22,986 bases of DNA from positions 1 to 22,986 of the IMG/VR virus record IMGVR_UViG_3300017708_002979; one strand, given 5' to 3'. The notes beneath the pieces were generated by a model. That model was given only the letters and a program-made list of their open reading frames with translations, did not search any database and was not told where the DNA came from. The translations under genes and the position numbers were made by a program. Below, piece by piece: positions 4,375 through 21,882 of this stretch. Each line of letters begins with the position of its first letter. Position 1 is the stretch's first letter. Source of the stretch: a virus.

Positions 4375-7300
4375 TATTGAACGCGAATGATGTATGATAA
4401 TGCAAGATATGGTGGTAGATTTGCATTAGTTCCACTTACACCAGCAGCTGTTGGAGTAATGTCATGGTTGTGAGCACCTTCACTATTTGTGGTGTGAATA
4501 TGTCCACCAGCATCAACAGCGCCGTGAGCATGACTACCAGCATCAACAGTATTGTGAGCATGACCACCAGCATTGTTGGTATTATGTGCGTGACCACCAG
4601 TATTGTTGGTGTTATGTCCATGACCACCAGTATTGTTGGTGTTATGTCCATGATTACCATTATTACTCATGTTGTGGTTGTGACCACCACCACCACCAGT
4701 TCCACGGTTTCTATATGATTGAGTTGCTGACTGGTTGTTTCTATTACCACGCTCTACACTACCATTTGCTCTTTGGTAATTATGTGCATGATTACCATTA
4801 TTATTCATATTGTGGTTGTGACCACCATTACCACTGGTATTATGCCTGTGAGCACCAGCATTGTTAGTATTATGGGCGTGAGCTCCAGCATTGTTGGTAT
4901 TATGAGCGTGAGCAGCAGCTGCTACTACGTTATGAGCATGATCTGCAGATGCTTGAATTGAGTGACCATGATTTGCAACTTGACTTGTGCCATGATCATG
5001 ATCAGAAGCGGAAACAGAATTAATAACGTGGTTGTGTGCAACTGTAAATGCATCAGTAGATCCACCAGATGCTCCCATTGCATATGATCCCTCAGTAGCA
5101 ACAACAAACTTATCACTCAAATCTGGTAGTAAGAATGTAGTTCCAGATGGATTTGCGCCGAATGGGAAGACAATTCCACCATTTGTTAGTGCATCATATA
5201 GATCTGGATATGTTGCCTGATCCAACTCAGCACCATCCGCTAGTTTCCAGTTAGCAGGAATCTTAGAAGAATGTCCTGCATAGTTCATAACACCACCGAT
5301 GGGTGGAATGTTGGGTACAATTAGGAAGTTTGCGGATAGTTTGCCAACAACATCCATATTGTCGTTGACTCTAACAATACTAGTTGAATCAGATTGTAGT
5401 GTTAGATCACCAGTTGCAGTCGTGATAACACTTGTGCTAGCTCCAACACCAATTTTGATGTTTGCAAAGTCAGCACCAGCTTTAGCATTGAGTTGACTGA
5501 TAAATGTACCAACACCAGCAACATTTAAATTACCATCAATATTGGTATTTCCTTGTACGTTAAAATCACTACCTAGTTCTAGGTTTCCGTCAAGTGTTGT
5601 GTTTCCAGAAACATTTAGTGTATTGTCAACAGAAACTGGACCACCGAAGGAAGATAGAATAGTCTTAGAAGCACCACCTTCAACAGTTAGTCTGTCATTA
5701 ACAACAACCTCGTCAAAGATAACGGATAGAACTGAAGGATCTTCGCCACGAATACTAGGAATGGGTGCATTGAAGGTTGTCTCTTCACCAGTAGATGGAT
5801 TGATAATCTTGTTACCAATAAAGAAGTCACCGTCATTATTCATAGCGGTGTATACAACCACACCAGCTGATCTGTTCTGAGACTGTGTTAAGAATTCTTC
5901 CTTATCAGTTAGAGTAATTGTCTGGACTTGTGGGAGACCAGTAGAATAGTTACCAGGACCATAACCAAGATATTCAAAGGTATGACCAGATGCACGAAGG
6001 ATAGATGGTCTTCTTAGTTCTGTGCCAAATACCTTAATTCTACGAACTAAAGCACCCTCTTGATGATTCTTAGTATTAGAACCGAGATAACCTCTAATAA
6101 CTACCAATTCATTATTAAGTGATCCTGAGAATTCAGAACTTGCAATTCTCATAATTTCACCATCAATCTCAAGATAAGTTCCTAGTGGGAATCTATCTGT
6201 TGTAGAGATGCCAGAGTTTGCAAGGTTAATTACAATCTTATTATCATCTTTTCCAGAACCTAGATCGTTACCAAGTAAACCAGAATCTCCATCCCAAAGA
6301 TTTATACCTCTAGAACCTAGTGATTCTGTTTCATCACTGATGTTTCCACCTCTAGCTGCGAATGTTGAGGGTAGAACCATAAATGGATCTGTCTGCAAAT
6401 TATTGCTAGTAGTGATTGTGAACGTATTAATACCAACTCTTTCTAATACATTATACTCACCAACATTATTGTTTGAGGAGTCTACGATCTTAAGACTTGA
6501 ACCAGAGATCAAACCATGAGCATCATTACATACAATAGTGTTAACATTACCAACTTTAGTAATAGTGCTAATTGCTACTGACTTACCAGAATTTACAACA
6601 AATTGATTCAACATAACATTTGGATCACCAGATGTCATCGCAAAAGCAACTTTATTTGCATCTGGGATACTTGTAATTCTATAGATGCCATCAGTAGTCT
6701 TACCAACACCAGTTAGTTGAATGGCATTATCATCGGAAGTAGAAATACCACTGTTTGAAATAGTCAGTGATGCTCCAGAGAATCCATCAAAATTAAGAAT
6801 TTCGCCATCTACATATCCAGAACCAGGAGAAATAATCTTTGCACCAATAATATTACCACCAGATCCAACTGTAACTTTAGATGTTGCACCATCCCATGTA
6901 GATGTTCCATCATTGATTAGTTTTACATTATAATAGTTTCCTGCAGCAAATCCAGTTCCACCTGATAGTGAACTATATGTTACAATGCCAGAAAGTCCAT
7001 GTCTTCTGTCCAGAGTTAGGGTAGTAATACCACTAGAATTGTCTCTTTCAATAGAAATGACAGATCTACCAACACCAATAACTCTACTAATCTTATCAAC
7101 AGTTTCTCTTGTAATGCTGCTTTCTGGATCATCAATAGCAACATCCCCCATAGGGTCTCTCTTAGCGAAAGACTTAGCTGAAGGTGGGTTCTCACTTAGA
7201 TTGTCTCTATCAAGTTGTGGATAGAAGTTTTCAATTTTGGGTAGATAATTCTGACCAGTAAATTCTTCAGGGATACTGTTGTCAGCAGATAGAGCTAAGA

Positions 7301-15260: not shown

Positions 15261-16550
15261 TTACTGTTTTCTACCGTATGTATCTCTAACAATTTGTAGT
15301 GATGTGTACGCTGACTCTGCTGATGAATAGTGGCATAATTCTTTAATCAAATATTTTCCACTAATTTCTGCATCTATTTCAGATGAACCAGTTTTTGGAA
15401 AATCGCATAATATTAAATTACCAACCGTCAAATCTAGATTCATAGGTACTATAATATTTATAACCTGATTCAAAATGGTATTATATCTCATAGTTGTTTG
15501 AGAAATAATATTTTCAAGTTGTTCTTCTAAACTTTTATCAGTATAGTCTATACTACCTCGTTTTACAACACCAACAAAATTTCTACTTGGCTTTAAAAAA
15601 TCTCCATCAAGAGTACTATTAACAGTACTATTTCCAAGATTATCCATTTTGTCTCTGTAATCTTCTGGACCATAATCTAAATTAATTTCAGCAATTGATC
15701 CTGTATATGGATCGAAAAAAGTTCTCTTCGATGAAAAAACTCCAAACTGCAAATTTTCAAGCAAATCATTATTTTCTATCACATTTTTTGCAAGTATTTT
15801 TTCTTTAGGATCGGTTCCCTTAGGATCATATGTGCTGAGAATCGCATTAATTTCTTTATAATTTGCTACAATTTCTTCTTTAATCAATCCATCAATTGAT
15901 CTGAAGTTGAGACCATTTTGAGTCTCATAAAAAACAAATCCAGCACTATTTGAAACTGTAGATTCGGGAATTGCTTTCGATGCTAGACTGAATATAACAG
16001 TAAAAGGTTTTTTACCATTGCCTTTATAAGTTATATTTCCAACCGATGGTTCAACATTATTAATATTTGAAATAATATTCAGATTTTTATCAAGAATATC
16101 AAGTACATGTCCTGTTGCTGTTTTATTCCTGAGAACTTTTTCTACTCTATTCACATTATCAGTTACAGCAGATTTTGAAATCATATGTAAGGTGAATGAC
16201 TCTCTATTGTTATTACTAGAAATATTTGATATTCTATTGATGAATAATCTTGCAGATTGTAATTCTAATCCTCCAATAGAATTTTCATGAGTCATTAAAA
16301 TTTCAATATCTTCTCCTCCTTTCAAAGGAACACCACTAATTAAAGTCGTTCGATTAGAACCATTTTTATCAATCTGAACATTACCAGTTGCCATAATTGT
16401 TGCAGTGGCAGTCAAGATAGGAGAATAAAGATCTTCATAATATCTAAATTCCACTACAGACGATGAAATATCAATAGACTGCTCTATTCCACGATCGTTT
16501 TTTGTAATAATATTAAACTTTGAATAATTTGCTGAATCTAAAGCTGCCAT
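15261..16550 (-). CDS. gp27: gp27-like baseplate central hub protein (429 residues)
   Basis: Near the N-terminus SSVVEFRYYEDLYSPILTAT (about 29-48) is typical of phage hub proteins of the gp27/gpD class, where a tube-like beta-barrel domain follows. The C-terminus has GKYLIKELCHYSSAESAYTS, the conserved hub ending. The length is close to T4 gp27 (391). The start ATG overlaps the previous stop by one base (TAATG). In T4 gp27 forms the trimeric hub that joins gp5 to the tail tube. The order here, just before CP12 and the gp5-like gene, supports the same role. It is a cylinder-forming structural protein and not an enzyme. Confidence 0.82.
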   Translation of the reverse strand: MAALDSANYSKFNIITKNDRGIEQSIDISSSVVEFRYYEDLYSPILTATATIMATGNVQIDKNGSNRTTLISGVPLKGGEDIEILMTHENSIGGLELQSARLFINRISNISSNNNRESFTLHMISKSAVTDNVNRVEKVLRNKTATGHVLDILDKNLNIISNINNVEPSVGNITYKGNGKKPFTVIFSLASKAIPESTVSNSAGFVFYETQNGLNFRSIDGLIKEEIVANYKEINAILSTYDPKGTDPKEKILAKNVIENNDLLENLQFGVFSSKRTFFDPYTGSIAEINLDYGPEDYRDKMDNLGNSTVNSTLDGDFLKPSRNFVGVVKRGSIDYTDKSLEEQLENIISQTTMRYNTILNQVINIIVPMNLDLTVGNLILCDFPKTGSSEIDAEISGKYLIKELCHYSSAESAYTSLQIVRDTYGRKQ

Positions 16551-18481
16551 TATGCGTGTGCAAGTTTGATTTTCATAATTCTATTTAACAAATCTTCTTT
16601 AGATGTAACCATCATTCCAGAAGAATTTTCACTAGCAACCGTTTGAGATTGTGATGCGGGTGGAGTAATTATGGTTGTAGATCCACCTTCTCTAGTTTTC
16701 ATCGTTGGTCCTAGATATCCAATCTCTTTTCCTAAATGTGTTTTTACCCAATCAATAGGGTCAACTTGATTACCAGCTGGTCCAATCTCCCAATGTAAAT
16801 GAGGGCCTTCTGAGTTACCAGTGCTACCAACATTGCCGAGGAGATCTCCTGCATTAAATTCTTGACCAACTTGTAATAACGAAGGTACTTTCATATGTGC
16901 GAATAGGTGCAATTGATTATAAACAGAATCTCTCCACTCTATCAAATTGCCATATCCAGGATCAAATTTATTTTGTGTGATTTTTCCAGGTAGATATGCA
17001 TATAAACCTGTGCCGCTATTTGCAGCAATATCAATACCTCGGTGATCTCGGCCAAAACGCTTACCCATTGCGGATACAATTTCAGCACCTCCAGTTTCTC
17101 CTGGCATAAATGGAGAATTACTAATAGAAACAGATGTTCTTGCTGGTCTATTACCTACTGAAGATCCAGTATTACCACTTACAGGAGCACCATTGAATTG
17201 AGGTTCTGGTCTAGATACAGATTTAGTTCTAGACTTAATTTCTTCAGGTGGTTCAGCTGCAATATATTTGTTTTTTCCTGTCTGTGCATATTGTCTTGAT
17301 CCAGGACCTACAAAGTTTCCAAATTGATTATCATTTTGATTTCTTTGTCTTATCTCAGTAGAACTATTATCTGGTTTTGATAGTTTAGCGCCATGAAAAT
17401 CTGTTCTCCCTTCAACCCAACTTCTTGCATTTCTCTGTAGCGTTTTATTTGTCAATGCTGCTAATGTAGCATCAACTTCTCTAGAAGCTATTTCCCTTGA
17501 GAGACCATCTGATTTCATTAATGCCTTAATGGCACCTTCTCTATCTTCAATTTCACGAAATTCTTTAGGTGCTCTACGCACAGGTTCATATTGTGACCCA
17601 TTTCCTTGTAAGATTAGTCCCCTAATTGATCCACCTTGAAATCCAAACTTAGCACCAGCTCTTTTTCTATTATAAATTGACTGCGCTACATCTGCACGAC
17701 CCTGTGGATCACTATCTTCTAGAGCAGAAATAGCAACTAATGTCCAAAAATCTGCATTTTTACTCGATGATTGTTGCTGTTGCTGTTGTGCTTGACCCTG
17801 ACCTGATCCATCTGGATTGCCACCAGGACCATAATATTCTTGACCTGATTGTTGTGCTCCAGGGAATGGAATACCCAAATATTCAAATATAGTTTTCGGC
17901 AAATTTTCTTTTATCCAGTTAAAACTTTCAGAAAAAGAATCTCTTAGTTGTATAAATTTACTTTCTAAATCATTAGCAATATTTGATATAGTGACTTTTA
18001 CATTCTCAAAATTAAAATTTTGCCTGATAAAATTATAACTATTCTCTGCAAATTGCTTAAGAGGTTTTAATTGATTGAAAGTATTACTTAAAAATTTTTT
18101 CCCCGATGATACAATAGACTGAATTTTTTCCTTCAATCTAATTACATTATCCCTAATTATAGGATAATTTTGAATTAACCAACCCAAAAATAGAGAGCCA
18201 ACTGCTCCCATAATTCTTCCAAGGAATCCTTTTCCTTTGTTGACAAGATAGGATACTCCACCAGTAGATAGTGATTTTAATTTACTTGCTTCTAAAGATT
18301 CTTCTCTTTGTCGTCTCTTCTTTTTTTGTTCAAATATATAAGTAACTCTTTTTTCATCAGCAAATAATTTTTGACTAGAGATCCTTTTTTTCTTAACAAC
18401 AGAGGTAAGGTTGGTAGAGGATTTTCTAGCAAAGATGCTACTTCTTCCTAATGATGCTATATTTTGATTTAGTGTACTCAT
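16550..18481 (-). CDS. Tape-measure-like tail protein with SleB-like and M23 peptidase domains (643 residues)
   Basis: The N-terminal 60 residues are basic, followed by a hydrophobic helix (about 84-107, FLGRIMGAVGSLFLGWLIQ) and amphipathic helices to about residue 205. A Gln-rich linker (about 228-240) leads to a SleB-like hydrolase segment (about 243-375, LVAISALEDSDPQGRADVAQ with candidate E255, then SIYNRKR). Residues about 465-585 are an M23 metallopeptidase domain: GRDHRGIDIA gives zinc ligands H480 and D484, FAHMK gives catalytic-site H529, and GPHLHWEIG gives H561 and H563. All key M23 residues are present. The protein likely travels with the tail tip and cuts peptidoglycan at entry, replacing the gp5 lysozyme. 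The gap to the previous gene is two bases, with GAGG upstream of the ATG. Confidence 0.85.
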   Translation of the reverse strand: MSTLNQNIASLGRSSIFARKSSTNLTSVVKKKRISSQKLFADEKRVTYIFEQKKKRRQREESLEASKLKSLSTGGVSYLVNKGKGFLGRIMGAVGSLFLGWLIQNYPIIRDNVIRLKEKIQSIVSSGKKFLSNTFNQLKPLKQFAENSYNFIRQNFNFENVKVTISNIANDLESKFIQLRDSFSESFNWIKENLPKTIFEYLGIPFPGAQQSGQEYYGPGGNPDGSGQGQAQQQQQQSSSKNADFWTLVAISALEDSDPQGRADVAQSIYNRKRAGAKFGFQGGSIRGLILQGNGSQYEPVRRAPKEFREIEDREGAIKALMKSDGLSREIASREVDATLAALTNKTLQRNARSWVEGRTDFHGAKLSKPDNSSTEIRQRNQNDNQFGNFVGPGSRQYAQTGKNKYIAAEPPEEIKSRTKSVSRPEPQFNGAPVSGNTGSSVGNRPARTSVSISNSPFMPGETGGAEIVSAMGKRFGRDHRGIDIAANSGTGLYAYLPGKITQNKFDPGYGNLIEWRDSVYNQLHLFAHMKVPSLLQVGQEFNAGDLLGNVGSTGNSEGPHLHWEIGPAGNQVDPIDWVKTHLGKEIGYLGPTMKTREGGSTTIITPPASQSQTVASENSSGMMVTSKEDLLNRIMKIKLAHA

Positions 18482-18483
18482 AA

Positions 18484-20097
18484 TCAGAACCTCACATTAT
18501 AGATAGATCTTGCTAAATCATTAAATGGATTATCTGGATTTTTAGTTGGAATTACAGGAATAAGAGTAGGAACACCAATATTAGCAGAAGATGTATTTGA
18601 ATCATTGGAATCAAAAACAATAGATGCTATGTTGGATGCATCATCAAAATCAAATCCAGATCTGACCAGACCTTGTATCATTGATTGTTTTTCAGGATTA
18701 GGAGTTGTAGTAACAAGTCCATTATTATTTTGAGACTCAGAATTTCCACTAATAAGGTCATTATATGATTGATTGCGATCAAATGGGTTAATGTCAAGTT
18801 TGCCAAAAGCCTTTTCAGCAACATCTAAGTAATAATTTCTCCTAGATTGAGCATCAGGTGTATCATCTATTGTCATATATGTTACTTGTCTCAACGCAGC
18901 TTCAAGCAACTCCGCGTTTTTTCCATCTGGACTTATTGTTTGTTCTCCAGAAATAATTTTTCTAGAATCCAAGATTGGAGCACCAAATGGATTTTGGAAC
19001 ATTCCAGTCTTTTTAACTTCAAATTGACCACCTTCAAAAATTTGTAATTTATAATCTTTCATAGGACTACCCTCTCTATCATATAATTCAAAGGTTCCTT
19101 GCCCTTCTTGTTTAAATTGGCCAAATAACTTATCAAACAATGCAGCGGATTCAGTTCCCGCAAATGAAGCTGCACCAACACCAGCAGGTATAGAAAATAC
19201 AAGTCCAGCACCTGTAAGTGCTAATCCTTTTGCAACTAATGCACCTGTACCATATGCAGCGCCAGAAACAAGTAGTGATTTTAGTGCTGATAATTTTTTA
19301 TCGTATCCTTCTTCCCTACCACCCTTAAATTCAAGAGTTCCACCAAGACCTAGCAAAGCTCTGCCAAACAATCTGCCAAGTCTTGTCCTTATTTTACCTT
19401 TTCCAAGACCTTTTACTTTTGGTTTTCCTTTCTCTGATCTGGGTACTCTCCCAGGTCCTTTAAATTTACCCTTTCCACTTCCAGGACGTAACTTAAATAA
19501 TGATTTTAAAAGTTTGAATGGGGATAAGACAAGAAACTTGCCAATTTTAAAAGCAAGCGATCCCATTATTTTGGCAATTCTAAAGAAATTACCATCAAGA
19601 ATCGACATGACGCCTACTGCTAGGCCCACCCCTTTTATTATTTCCCCACCAAACTTTTTAAGTCTTTCATTAAAAGTTCCACCTTCCTTATCGAACAACT
19701 TGATAAGTTTATCAGTAAGCCATCCACCAAAGAGAAGAAGTAAAGCCCTCTTTAAACTCTCTAATGGACCTGCAATAGTTTTGGTTGCGACGTTTATTGG
19801 TCTTTTGACCGCCGCAACTACAGAACCTTCTAATGATTTCTCTGCACCACCAAAAGATTCTTTCTCTGCTAATCTAATTCTTCTTCTTTTCTCTCCCCTA
19901 ATTCTAGTAGTACTAAGTCTATCTTCACGTACTAATGCACTAGCAACTGTCTGTATATTATTCCCTACTGCTATAATATTCTGATTAATTGAAACTAATT
20001 GTTTAGATACTAGTTCATCTCCTCCCCTATTAGAAGTTAAGAGTGATGAGGGTCTACCTCGAATCACTGATGGTTTTACTAGGAGATTAGATGCCAT
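18484..20097 (-). CDS. Tape-measure/baseplate hub candidate, gp29-like position (537 residues)
   Basis: The N-terminus (about 1-60) is polar and SINQNIIAVGNNIQTVAS is a helix. It is followed by a strongly basic stretch (RGEKRRRIRLAEK, 67-79), a hydrophobic helix (LLLLFGGWLTDKLIKL, about 119-134) and further hydrophobic helices to 200. Next come a Lys/Arg/Gly-rich linker (about 203-245) and a Gly/Ala-rich hydrophobic segment (about 275-315). The C-terminal third is polar. Gly/Ala-rich hydrophobic helices and a position right after the gp26/gp51 chaperone pair are what is expected of the tape measure (T4 gp29, 590 residues). Sequence identity to gp29 is not obvious by eye. The ATG overlaps the end of the gp51-like frame by 11 bases. 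Confidence 0.65.
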   Translation of the reverse strand: MASNLLVKPSVIRGRPSSLLTSNRGGDELVSKQLVSINQNIIAVGNNIQTVASALVREDRLSTTRIRGEKRRRIRLAEKESFGGAEKSLEGSVVAAVKRPINVATKTIAGPLESLKRALLLLFGGWLTDKLIKLFDKEGGTFNERLKKFGGEIIKGVGLAVGVMSILDGNFFRIAKIMGSLAFKIGKFLVLSPFKLLKSLFKLRPGSGKGKFKGPGRVPRSEKGKPKVKGLGKGKIRTRLGRLFGRALLGLGGTLEFKGGREEGYDKKLSALKSLLVSGAAYGTGALVAKGLALTGAGLVFSIPAGVGAASFAGTESAALFDKLFGQFKQEGQGTFELYDREGSPMKDYKLQIFEGGQFEVKKTGMFQNPFGAPILDSRKIISGEQTISPDGKNAELLEAALRQVTYMTIDDTPDAQSRRNYYLDVAEKAFGKLDINPFDRNQSYNDLISGNSESQNNNGLVTTTPNPEKQSMIQGLVRSGFDFDDASNIASIVFDSNDSNTSSANIGVPTLIPVIPTKNPDNPFNDLARSIYNVRF

Positions 20098-20275
20098 TTT
20101 TCTGTTTATACCTCAATTCCTCTTCTTCTAAGTACGTTGTGAGTAGAGAAATATAAACATCTCTTTCCCACGGCATCATATTTTCTAACTCTGTCAAGCT
20201 GTATTTATGGTGCTGCATCAATGCAAAATTCGTCTGGTAGTATGAGGACAGATTCTCATGCGCCAGGGCTAACCG
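20087..20275 (-). CDS. gp51: gp51-like C-terminal extension made by -1 frameshift from gp26
   Basis: The -1 frame is open from the end of gp26 to a TAA at 20089-20087, overlapping the next gene's ATG by 11 bases. Its 62 codons read RLALAHENLSSYYQTNFALM, then HHKYSLTELENMMPWERDVY, and end in an acidic/basic tail. The tail-chaperone-like KYSxTELExMMPWERD region is protein-like and strongly non-random. A slippery T TTT TTC lies at its start, so the fusion would be 299 residues. The first in-frame ATG (20218) would give only 43 residues and would skip the conserved first third, which argues for frameshifting. In T4, genes 26 and 51 are adjacent. The fusion is inferred to be a tape-measure chaperone needed in small amounts and absent from virions. 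Confidence 0.72.
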   Translation of the reverse strand, partial: RLALAHENLSSYYQTNFALMQHHKYSLTELENMMPWERDVYISLLTTYLEEEELRYKQKNGI

Positions 20276-20985
20276 AAAAAAGATGCCAAACCTTCCAATA
20301 CAATTTCACTTTCAACCTTTGTCTTAGGGTTAGTTACTTTGAGAGTATGTGTAAGTTTGGGCATTGTTAAGAAGAATTTCTCAACTTTAGTAAACTGTGA
20401 AGTTGTTAAATTCTCAACAAATTCCATCAATTCTTTTTTACTACAATCAGTTGCAGTCCAAGATTCTTCTTCATTAAAGACTTGTTCAATACAGTTTGCA
20501 ATAATATCAAATCCCTCATCAACATTATTATCACCTTGTGAGAAGTTGTTTTGAACAAACTCATTCAAGGATGGGTATCTCATTCTCAATGTTAAAGCAT
20601 CATCAAGTTTAATATCTCGATTATGGTTTTCATCAGTAGTGACTTTGATATCATCAATATTAATTTGCATCTCTACAGATGTTTCACCATCATCAGGGCA
20701 AGTGACATTTACATCAATAACTTCACCTACAGATTTACCACGAACATTTAGAAACAGATACTCAATATCAAACGTAGATAGTTTATCTACCTTGATGCCT
20801 CTAGTCTGAATGCAGGCAGTTAGAACATTTTTTACAGCATCTGTAACTTGCTTCATATCTTCACTTTCAAGAGCCAAGATAAGAACTTTTTCTTCCTTTA
20901 CAAGGAATGGACGATATTTAATCTTTTTCTTTGATGAAGGCATCTCAAGTTCATAGACAGGAGTCGTAGACTTAGGTAAAGGCAT
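20269..20985 (-). CDS. gp26: gp26 baseplate hub assembly protein (238 residues)
   Basis: The sequence MPLPKSTTPVYELEMPSSKK, then YRPFLVKEEKVLILALESED, matches the T4 gp26/T4_baseplate family. It is followed by a region with VNVTCPDDGETSVEMQIN (about 91-108). The length is near T4 gp26 (208). In T4 it acts in hub assembly and is not a major mature component. It is the first gene after a late promoter (ATAAATA) 21 bases upstream of the ATG at 20985. It ends ...ASFFG at TAG 20271-20269. Four bases upstream of that TAG is a U UUU UUC heptamer that would shift a fraction of ribosomes into the -1 frame to make the gp51-like product. Confidence 0.85.
   Translation of the reverse strand: MPLPKSTTPVYELEMPSSKKKIKYRPFLVKEEKVLILALESEDMKQVTDAVKNVLTACIQTRGIKVDKLSTFDIEYLFLNVRGKSVGEVIDVNVTCPDDGETSVEMQINIDDIKVTTDENHNRDIKLDDALTLRMRYPSLNEFVQNNFSQGDNNVDEGFDIIANCIEQVFNEEESWTATDCSKKELMEFVENLTTSQFTKVEKFFLTMPKLTHTLKVTNPKTKVESEIVLEGLASFFG
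20275..20281 (-). promoter_or_regulatory. Programmed -1 ribosomal frameshift site (T TTT TTC)
   Basis: The zero-frame codons are GCA TCT TTT TTC GGT TAG. Slipping back one base re-pairs P-site TTT with TTT and A-site TTC with TTT, the ideal X XXY YYZ geometry. The new frame reads TTT CGG TTA GCC and stays open for 62 codons. An imperfect downstream stem (ATGAG with CTCAT, at 20259-20255 and 20246-20242) could act as a stimulator. It is analogous to lambda G/GT and P2 E/E'. Confidence 0.7.
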
Positions 20986-21006: not shown

Positions 21007-21013
21007 TATTTAT
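21007..21013 (-). promoter_or_regulatory. T4-type late promoter of the gp26 operon
   Basis: ATAAATA on the minus strand, 21 bases before the gp26 ATG. The heptamer contains the TAA stop of the preceding gene (21012-21010). It would drive gp26, gp51, the tape measures and the hub genes. Confidence 0.65.
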
Positions 21014-21882
21014 GATGCCTTAGTAAAGTTGATATATTTCCTAGTAGGAAGTCCGTCACCACCAAAATCAGGTTTGTTATTTATAAAATCGTCAACGAAA
21101 GATTGATTTGTTAACTGCTGTCTGAAAGACTTGAATGCATTTGGCGATGTAAAATACTGGGATAATCCAGATGGTAGAGTTTCACTTCCAGATGTAGCTG
21201 CAGCATCTTTATATGACCTATCATACAGAGCATTATCTGATGTATCTGCAATGTTGCTCAATTTATCTCCACCAGAACCAATCTCTCCAGCAGAACCAAC
21301 CACGTACCTATCGTAGTTAAATTCTACGTTGATTCTAAGGACCTGAGATGACTCGTAAGATACTGGAGTTGATGTTACTGCCTTTGGAAATAGTGATATA
21401 AAATTATATTGCAAACTATGCTTTGGATTATAATCTCGATCAAACTTGACAATGGTCATTGCCTCACACTTATATTGATCAGGATATCTCATCCTATAGA
21501 AGTATCCTTTGGCAAGACTGTCTGATGATCCTGCGCCTGAAATATATTCAATCCAATATTCAAAGAATCTGAGCATTTTATATTCAGAGTCACAATAAAA
21601 CTGCAAACTAATATTTCCAAACTGCCTGGTATGTGCATATTCCTGTTGCACCCCCGTGAAATTACCTTCAACATTTACTGTAGCAAGAGATGATCCAGGT
21701 AATGATGCATCATGACATAGAAGGCCTGCCTTTCTATAGATAAAGTTTGAATCAACTCCTCTCTTATCTAAATATTTTCTCAACCCCTTTGGAAATCCAT
21801 CCATGATTATCTCAAAGTGTGAACTTTGAGCTAAATTCATTAAGACTGGTTTTAGATCTGAAATTCTTTTTGGACTTGGCAC
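21010..21882 (-). CDS. gp54: Tail-tube-fold baseplate protein, probable gp54 tube initiator (290 residues)
   Basis: The protein shows alternating strands such as VNVEGNFTGVQQEYAHTRQF, NISLQFYCDSEYK, RFFEYWIEYI, CEAMTIVKFDRDYN and QVLRINVEFNYDRYVVG. These are typical of T4 gp19/gp54-type tail-tube beta-barrels, with a Ser/Gly-rich C-terminal third. It fits the tube initiator gp54 (T4 length 320) better than the shorter gp19 (about 160), and its place beside the hub genes supports gp54, but I cannot exclude another tube paralogue. The start is GTG at 21882. The next in-frame ATG is 14 codons inside. It is divergent from gp4, with a 30-base gap that holds candidate late promoters for both directions. 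Confidence 0.65.
   Translation of the reverse strand: MPSPKRISDLKPVLMNLAQSSHFEIIMDGFPKGLRKYLDKRGVDSNFIYRKAGLLCHDASLPGSSLATVNVEGNFTGVQQEYAHTRQFGNISLQFYCDSEYKMLRFFEYWIEYISGAGSSDSLAKGYFYRMRYPDQYKCEAMTIVKFDRDYNPKHSLQYNFISLFPKAVTSTPVSYESSQVLRINVEFNYDRYVVGSAGEIGSGGDKLSNIADTSDNALYDRSYKDAAATSGSETLPSGLSQYFTSPNAFKSFRQQLTNQSFVDDFINNKPDFGGDGLPTRKYINFTKAS

Follow-up and report, generated by a model that had tools for sequence, protein, structure and literature searches.

A predicted -1 frameshift joins gp26 and gp51 in relatives of phage T4

Introduction

Comparative analysis of a 22,986-nucleotide stretch of viral DNA (IMG/VR record IMGVR_UViG_3300017708_002979, below "the window") and of its relatives makes it highly probable, on the evidence of sequence, that gp26 and the -1 reading frame behind it constitute a single tail assembly chaperone gene, whose short (gp26, TAC-N) and long (gp26-gp51, TAC-NC) products would be generated by -1 frameshifting in the manner of the lambda G/GT pair. 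A first-pass annotation of the window had proposed that gp51 in cyanophages is the frameshifted C-terminus of gp26 and not an independent gene; the comparisons described below support this for cyanophages and for many other phages of the T4 superfamily, but not for T4 itself.

Frameshifted tail assembly chaperones of long-tailed phages, including lambda G/GT, have been described by Xu et al. (2004) and reviewed in 2016 (PMC5009743), where T4 is presented as the exception to G-T frameshifting. In T4, gp26 and gp51 are described as hub assembly chaperones (PMC3004832). Sullivan et al. (2010; PMC3037559) reported that cyanophage and marine vibriophage gp51 is short of the N-terminal ~200 residues and that Aeh1 has no gp51, and the portion of that paper considered here makes no mention of frameshifting.

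Results

Junction of gp26 and the -1 frame in the window

The features of the junction and of its flanking genes are as follows.

21010 to 21882, minus strand: tail tube-like protein, upstream of gp26 (PF23849, E 7.7e-19; phrog_45, tail tube)
20269 to 20985, minus strand: gp26 of the T4 gp26 family, putative short tail assembly chaperone (TAC-N), 238 aa (PF12322, E 3.5e-74; phrog_150; N-domain model similar to the HK97 chaperone)
20291 to 20296, minus strand: Shine-Dalgarno (SD)-like GGAAGG 5' of the slip site, a weak form of the family motif GAGGGR (family conservation and anti-SD energy)
20275 to 20281, minus strand: putative -1 slippery heptamer T TTT TTC, gp26 codons Phe236 and Phe237 (sequence, conservation and synonymous constraint)
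20269 to 20271, minus strand: gp26 stop TAG, one codon 3' of the heptamer (sequence)
20234 to 20266, minus strand: predicted hairpin 3' of the slip site (-9.3 kcal/mol), different from the strong covarying hairpin of relatives
20090 to 20275, minus strand: -1 extension of 62 codons, the so-called gp51 (phrog_634; C-terminal part of phrog_150; BLASTP to the C-terminus of T4-type gp51)
20216 to 20221, minus strand: earliest starts available in the -1 frame, TTG (20221-20219) and then ATG (20218-20216), too late for a full-length gp51
20087 to 20089, minus strand: stop TAA of the -1 frame (sequence)
18484 to 20097, minus strand: next gene, 537 aa, overlapping the end of the -1 frame, a candidate tape measure gene (position; phrog_3405, unknown function)

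The 3' end of gp26 reads GCA TCT TTT TTC GGT TAG, with T TTT TTC in a phase that fits a -1 slip and with a spacer of one codon (GGT, 3 nt) before the stop; the heptamer is therefore present as originally noted, while the spacer is one base shorter than the four bases given at that time. The -1 frame contains no stop between 20305 and its TAA and, as first described, continues for 62 codons after the slip, its end overlapping the ATG (20097-20095) of the next gene. It contains no ATG, GTG or TTG before position 20221, which already lies inside the conserved peptide, in agreement with the earlier observation that the frame has no early start. Thus, in the window a separate ORF with its own start for a full-length gp51 is absent, and just the C-terminal 62 residues are encoded, as a -1 frame. 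The peptide following the slip is RLALAHENLSSYYQTNFALMQHHKYSLTELENMMPWERDVYISLLTTYLEEEELRYKQKNGI, and the predicted fusion (TAC-NC) would combine gp26 residues 1-237 with these 62 residues into a protein of 299 aa, with ASFFRLALAHENLSSYYQTNF as the junction-spanning peptide. The extension is matched by phrog_634 (annotated as "baseplate hub assembly catalyst") at E 9.5e-30 and by the C-terminal end of phrog_150, the N-terminal part of which is gp26; no Pfam model covers the -1 peptide.

By itself the heptamer does not exceed what chance would give, as the window contains 12 copies of TTTTTTC vs. 8.8 expected. Ten in-frame A/T heptamers are found among the genes of the window, the one in gp26 being the sole case within the last 10 codons of a gene. 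Because a heptamer alone is found at about chance frequency, the evidence for a slip site comes from its conservation.

Conservation of the heptamer and of the -1 frame

The comparison covered 213 gp26 loci representing 189 distinct junctions. Most loci were gathered with gp26 peptides, so the junction was not used for their selection; annotated phage records entered the sample through matches to gp26 or to the -1 peptide. Within this sample of phylogenetically linked relatives, an in-frame T TTT TT followed by C, T or G is kept at 188 of the 189 distinct junctions, occupying the identical place (10 nt before the stop) in 184 and carrying C as the seventh base in 183. The codon preceding Phe-Phe always ends in T (AGT, TCT, GCT, GAT, AAT or GGT), even as it encodes five different amino acids (Ser, Ala, Asp, Asn and Gly). 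When the sequences are clustered at 50% protein identity, 13 of 14 clusters keep the heptamer, and the product of the per-cluster chances of finding it, given each gene's own codon use, is ~10^-9.5. Among 182 close relatives, Phe236 is encoded by TTT in every case and Phe237 by TTC in 180 and by TTT in two, although TTT is the usual Phe codon; nowhere else in gp26 is synonymous entropy as low as at these two codons.

Slippage of RNA polymerase on the T run, yielding frame-changed mRNAs with no slip of the ribosome, would be another way to reach the -1 frame, and the six or seven consecutive T at the site are in keeping with it. Nevertheless, the seventh base is nearly always C, though a T there would extend the run and still specify Phe. 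Polymerase slippage generally calls for runs longer than six T. Ribosomes are also favored by the X XXY YYZ phase, by the SD-like element and by the spacing of the hairpin (see below), and we consider the polymerase-based explanation very unlikely.

Beyond the gp26 stop, the -1 frame remains open for 167-203 nt in all 181 untruncated loci, compared with 5-6 stops in the other frames of the same region, and the changes in this region fall mostly at third (59%) and seldom at second (11%) codon positions of the -1 frame, which points to selection at the protein level. A conserved heptamer, a conserved -1 peptide and suppressed synonymous change near the overlap had been named in the first-pass annotation as expected signs of frameshifting, and all three are observed. 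The chance frequency of the heptamer in the window is what would be expected if the -1 frame were open by accident and untranslated; at the level of protein-coding conservation, however, this explanation is refuted by the invariably open frame, the protein-like substitution pattern and the homology of the -1 peptide to phrog_634 and to the C-terminus of T4-type gp51, leaving it a vanishingly small probability.

The heptamer is also present in Aeh1, Citrobacter Ci1, Stenotrophomonas Ps15, Acidovorax ACP17, Sinorhizobium phiN3 and S-PM2. It is absent from Ackermannviridae (Salmonella Det7, L232, and Dickeya phiD3, L233) and from one Vibrio clade (K413 and K475; L071 and L235). The gp26 relatives of Det7, phiD3, K413 and K475 retain a -1 open frame without the heptamer, and in phiD3, K413 and K475 the gp26 stop shares bases with an ATG (TAATG), the corresponding sequence in Det7 being TAATT. 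These four phages may have switched to coupled initiation.

Flanking elements and the case for coupled re-initiation

Across the family, a GAGGG-like element ends ~8 nt upstream of the heptamer. The Glu located eight codons before the gp26 stop is encoded by GAG in 142 of 176 sequences, compared with 32% for Glu in the gene body (20 of 57 for gene-body Glu codons that are followed by Gly), and the Gly next to it is encoded by GGG in 20% vs. 5%. The anti-SD binding energy has one sharp peak, at this upstream element only, with no peak near a possible gp51 start (+5). The window's own version of the element is weak, at the 33rd percentile of synonymous resamples.

Downstream of the heptamer, predicted folding is stronger than in shuffled sequences for 50-nt windows that begin at +2 (mean z -2.26 for 52 representatives), and this signal is lost by +10. 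A hairpin of 11 bp starting 5 nt after the heptamer is found in 93 of 179 relatives. Its inner pair is seen as T-A, G-C and A-T (GCT/GAG in 55, GCG/GCG in 19 and GCA/GTG in 9), a synonymous Ala change on one arm tracking a Glu/Ala/Val change on the other, with this covariation counted across related loci and in a region that is also coding in the -1 frame. A search for the conserved hairpin in the window gave just a weak one, no better than shuffles (z -0.50). In P-HM2 (L057:2510-2536), a short GC-rich hairpin of its own (CCCUC...GAGGG) lies right after the gp26 stop in place of the common one; the stimulator may have been replaced in this lineage.

These elements bear on the view that gp51 is an independent gene expressed by translational coupling, via re-initiation at a nearby ATG of the -1 frame, the T run being simply two conserved Phe codons. 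Several public records indeed annotate gp51 as re-initiated at an ATG near the gp26 stop, and such codons are common: an ATG lies 5 nt downstream of the stop's first base in 126 of the 189 relatives and overlaps the stop (TAATG/TGATG type) in seven. Homologues with an intact start codon and a ribosome-binding site for a full-length gp51 had been named at the outset as one finding that would refute frameshifting; a start codon is present in part of the relatives, but the +5 ATG has no SD peak nearby and is buried in the covarying stem in 92 of the 93 hairpin-bearing relatives. Moreover, no ATG precedes the conserved peptide in the window, Sf-CH8, P-HM1/2, ACG-2014d, Melnitz-3, the L050-L055 group and others. 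Coupling also leaves unexplained the fixation of NNT TTT TTC, which is present where the -1 frame follows and not in gp26 of the T4 clade. Judging from the available start codons, coupled re-initiation could not provide a full-length gp51 in the window, and we consider it improbable as the general explanation; it may add free gp51 in those relatives that have an ATG right after the stop.

We lean, with moderate confidence, toward a broader interpretation, in which gene 26 of many marine T4-like phages ends in a recoding cassette of three parts, a GAGGG-like element, the T TTT TTC heptamer and a covarying hairpin, tuned to set the ratio of short to long chaperone, the hairpin in addition hiding the ATG for free gp51, while T4 would obtain the same two products via gene duplication and splitting. 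All three parts are also combined in the E. coli dnaX cassette (SD-like element, heptamer and downstream hairpin), which differs in belonging to another gene; the flanking elements in the window itself are weak.

Chaperone fold and neighboring genes

A structure model of gp26 (pLDDT 87) was compared with solved structures. Foldseek against the PDB returned no significant match for this model or for that of a T4-type gp51. VIA ranked the HK97 tail assembly chaperone 2OB9 first for the gp26 model (Z 8.0, rmsd 3.8, alignment of 84 residues of the N-terminal domain), with 3FGX tied (Z 7.7) and the next match at Z 4.7; for the T4-type gp51 model (pLDDT 89) VIA did not return 2OB9, and no solved structure was matched when the joint alignment was used for a profile search. 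This comparison of models lends moderate support to a tail-assembly-chaperone fold of the gp26 N-domain.

By its position the next gene is a likely candidate for the tape measure gene, and the overlap noted at first with the tape-measure start is an overlap with the ATG of this candidate; the BLASTP similarity of its 537-aa product to T4 gp29 is too weak (E 0.026) to establish the assignment. The two long genes that follow the -1 frame, at 16550-18481 and 18484-20097, share a weak N-terminal similarity (BLASTP E 0.004), and the second of them ends in an M23 peptidase domain; either may encode the tape measure. Elsewhere in the window (4500-4919), a 30-base repeat array near the C-terminus of a 1944-residue protein encodes His/Asn-rich, HAHNTNNAGA-like units.

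The suggested analogy with lambda G/GT is borne out in several respects, including a heptamer close to where the upstream ORF terminates, a -1 extension without a start of its own, a location between a preceding tail tube-like gene and a long gene that follows, and the modeled resemblance of the gp26 N-domain to the HK97 chaperone. Differences from lambda are the larger size of gp26 (238 aa), the sequence of the site (T TTT TTC) and the presence of an SD-like element and a hairpin in many relatives.

Comparison with T4 gp26 and gp51

T4 carries genes 26 and 51 in divergent orientation on opposite strands, with ~50 nt between them. Residues 1-201 of T4 gp51 (249 aa) match PF12322 (E 4e-52), the same family as T4 gp26 (E 9e-64), and gp26 and gp51 of one T4-clade phage are paralogues by BLASTP (E 6e-5); a profile comparison of gp26 with T4-type gp51 gave a probability of 85, a weaker result than that from Pfam. 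The C-terminus of Klebsiella JD18 gp51 aligns with the -1 peptide of the window over 51 residues without gaps at 33% identity, from the junction on (BLASTP E 8e-9 for that single comparison). Because T4 gp51 consists of a PF12322 domain and a C-terminus homologous to the -1 peptide, it appears to be the fusion product hard-wired as a gene of its own, with T4 gp26 as the equivalent of the short product. Two T4 genes would do, with no need of a slip, what one gene would do here, the window gp26 being a PF12322 homologue and T4 gp51 a gp26-like domain joined to the same C-terminal peptide. The 12 T4-clade gp26 genes analyzed (with gp51 as a separate gene) contain no heptamer; nine retain Phe-Phe at the corresponding position, written GAG/GAA TTC TTT, and the three others have lost it. 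From their sequences, these genes can be taken as a natural control, with no -1 frame behind them and the slip site gone.

Discussion

By the proposed mechanism, most ribosomes would reach the TAG and release the short protein gp26 (TAC-N), while some would slip back by one base on T TTT TTC, bypass the TAG and produce the 299-residue gp26-gp51 fusion (TAC-NC). If lambda G/GT is taken as the model, gp26 is most likely the short chaperone made in abundance, and the long frameshift product is most likely rare, their ratio being set by the efficiency of slipping. Coating of the tape measure protein would then fall to the gp26 part, and recruitment of tail tube subunits to the added helical domain.

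As cited in PMC10885494 and PMC12846349, Vladimirov, Gautam and Davidson (2022; Virology 566:9-15) named tail assembly chaperone genes of T4-like phages, with poly-T slippery sites in the TAC-N genes and, in some of these phages, with frameshifting replaced by two genes, one short and one for the long fusion. On the basis of these citations, the core idea of a frameshifted T4-like chaperone has very likely been published already; the flanking elements and the solution of the puzzle raised by Sullivan et al. and by Aeh1 may be new. In Aeh1 (L228:1081-1290), T TTT TTC precedes the gp26 stop and is followed by an unannotated -1 peptide (RLTLVNDSVYDLFNVNYEMHKEGW...), which indicates that gp51 is present in this phage.

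In public records (loci L057, L059, L056, L058, L064, L075 and L231), gp51 is given as 30 aa in P-HM2 and 43 aa in Sf-CH8 and is left out in S-WAM1, ACG-2014d, Ah1, AsFcp_2 and ACP17. These short or omitted entries are annotation artefacts of the predicted frameshift.

Overall, gene 51 is listed as nearly core in T4-like phages, and its annotation would change across hundreds of cyanophage genomes, where gp51 is currently missing, cut short or given a false start. The puzzle of cyanophage and marine vibriophage gp51 lacking the first ~200 residues is explained if gp26 supplies them through the frameshift, and the description of T4 as the exception (PMC5009743) is to be qualified, as frameshifting of the G-T type appears to be used in much of the T4 superfamily at large.
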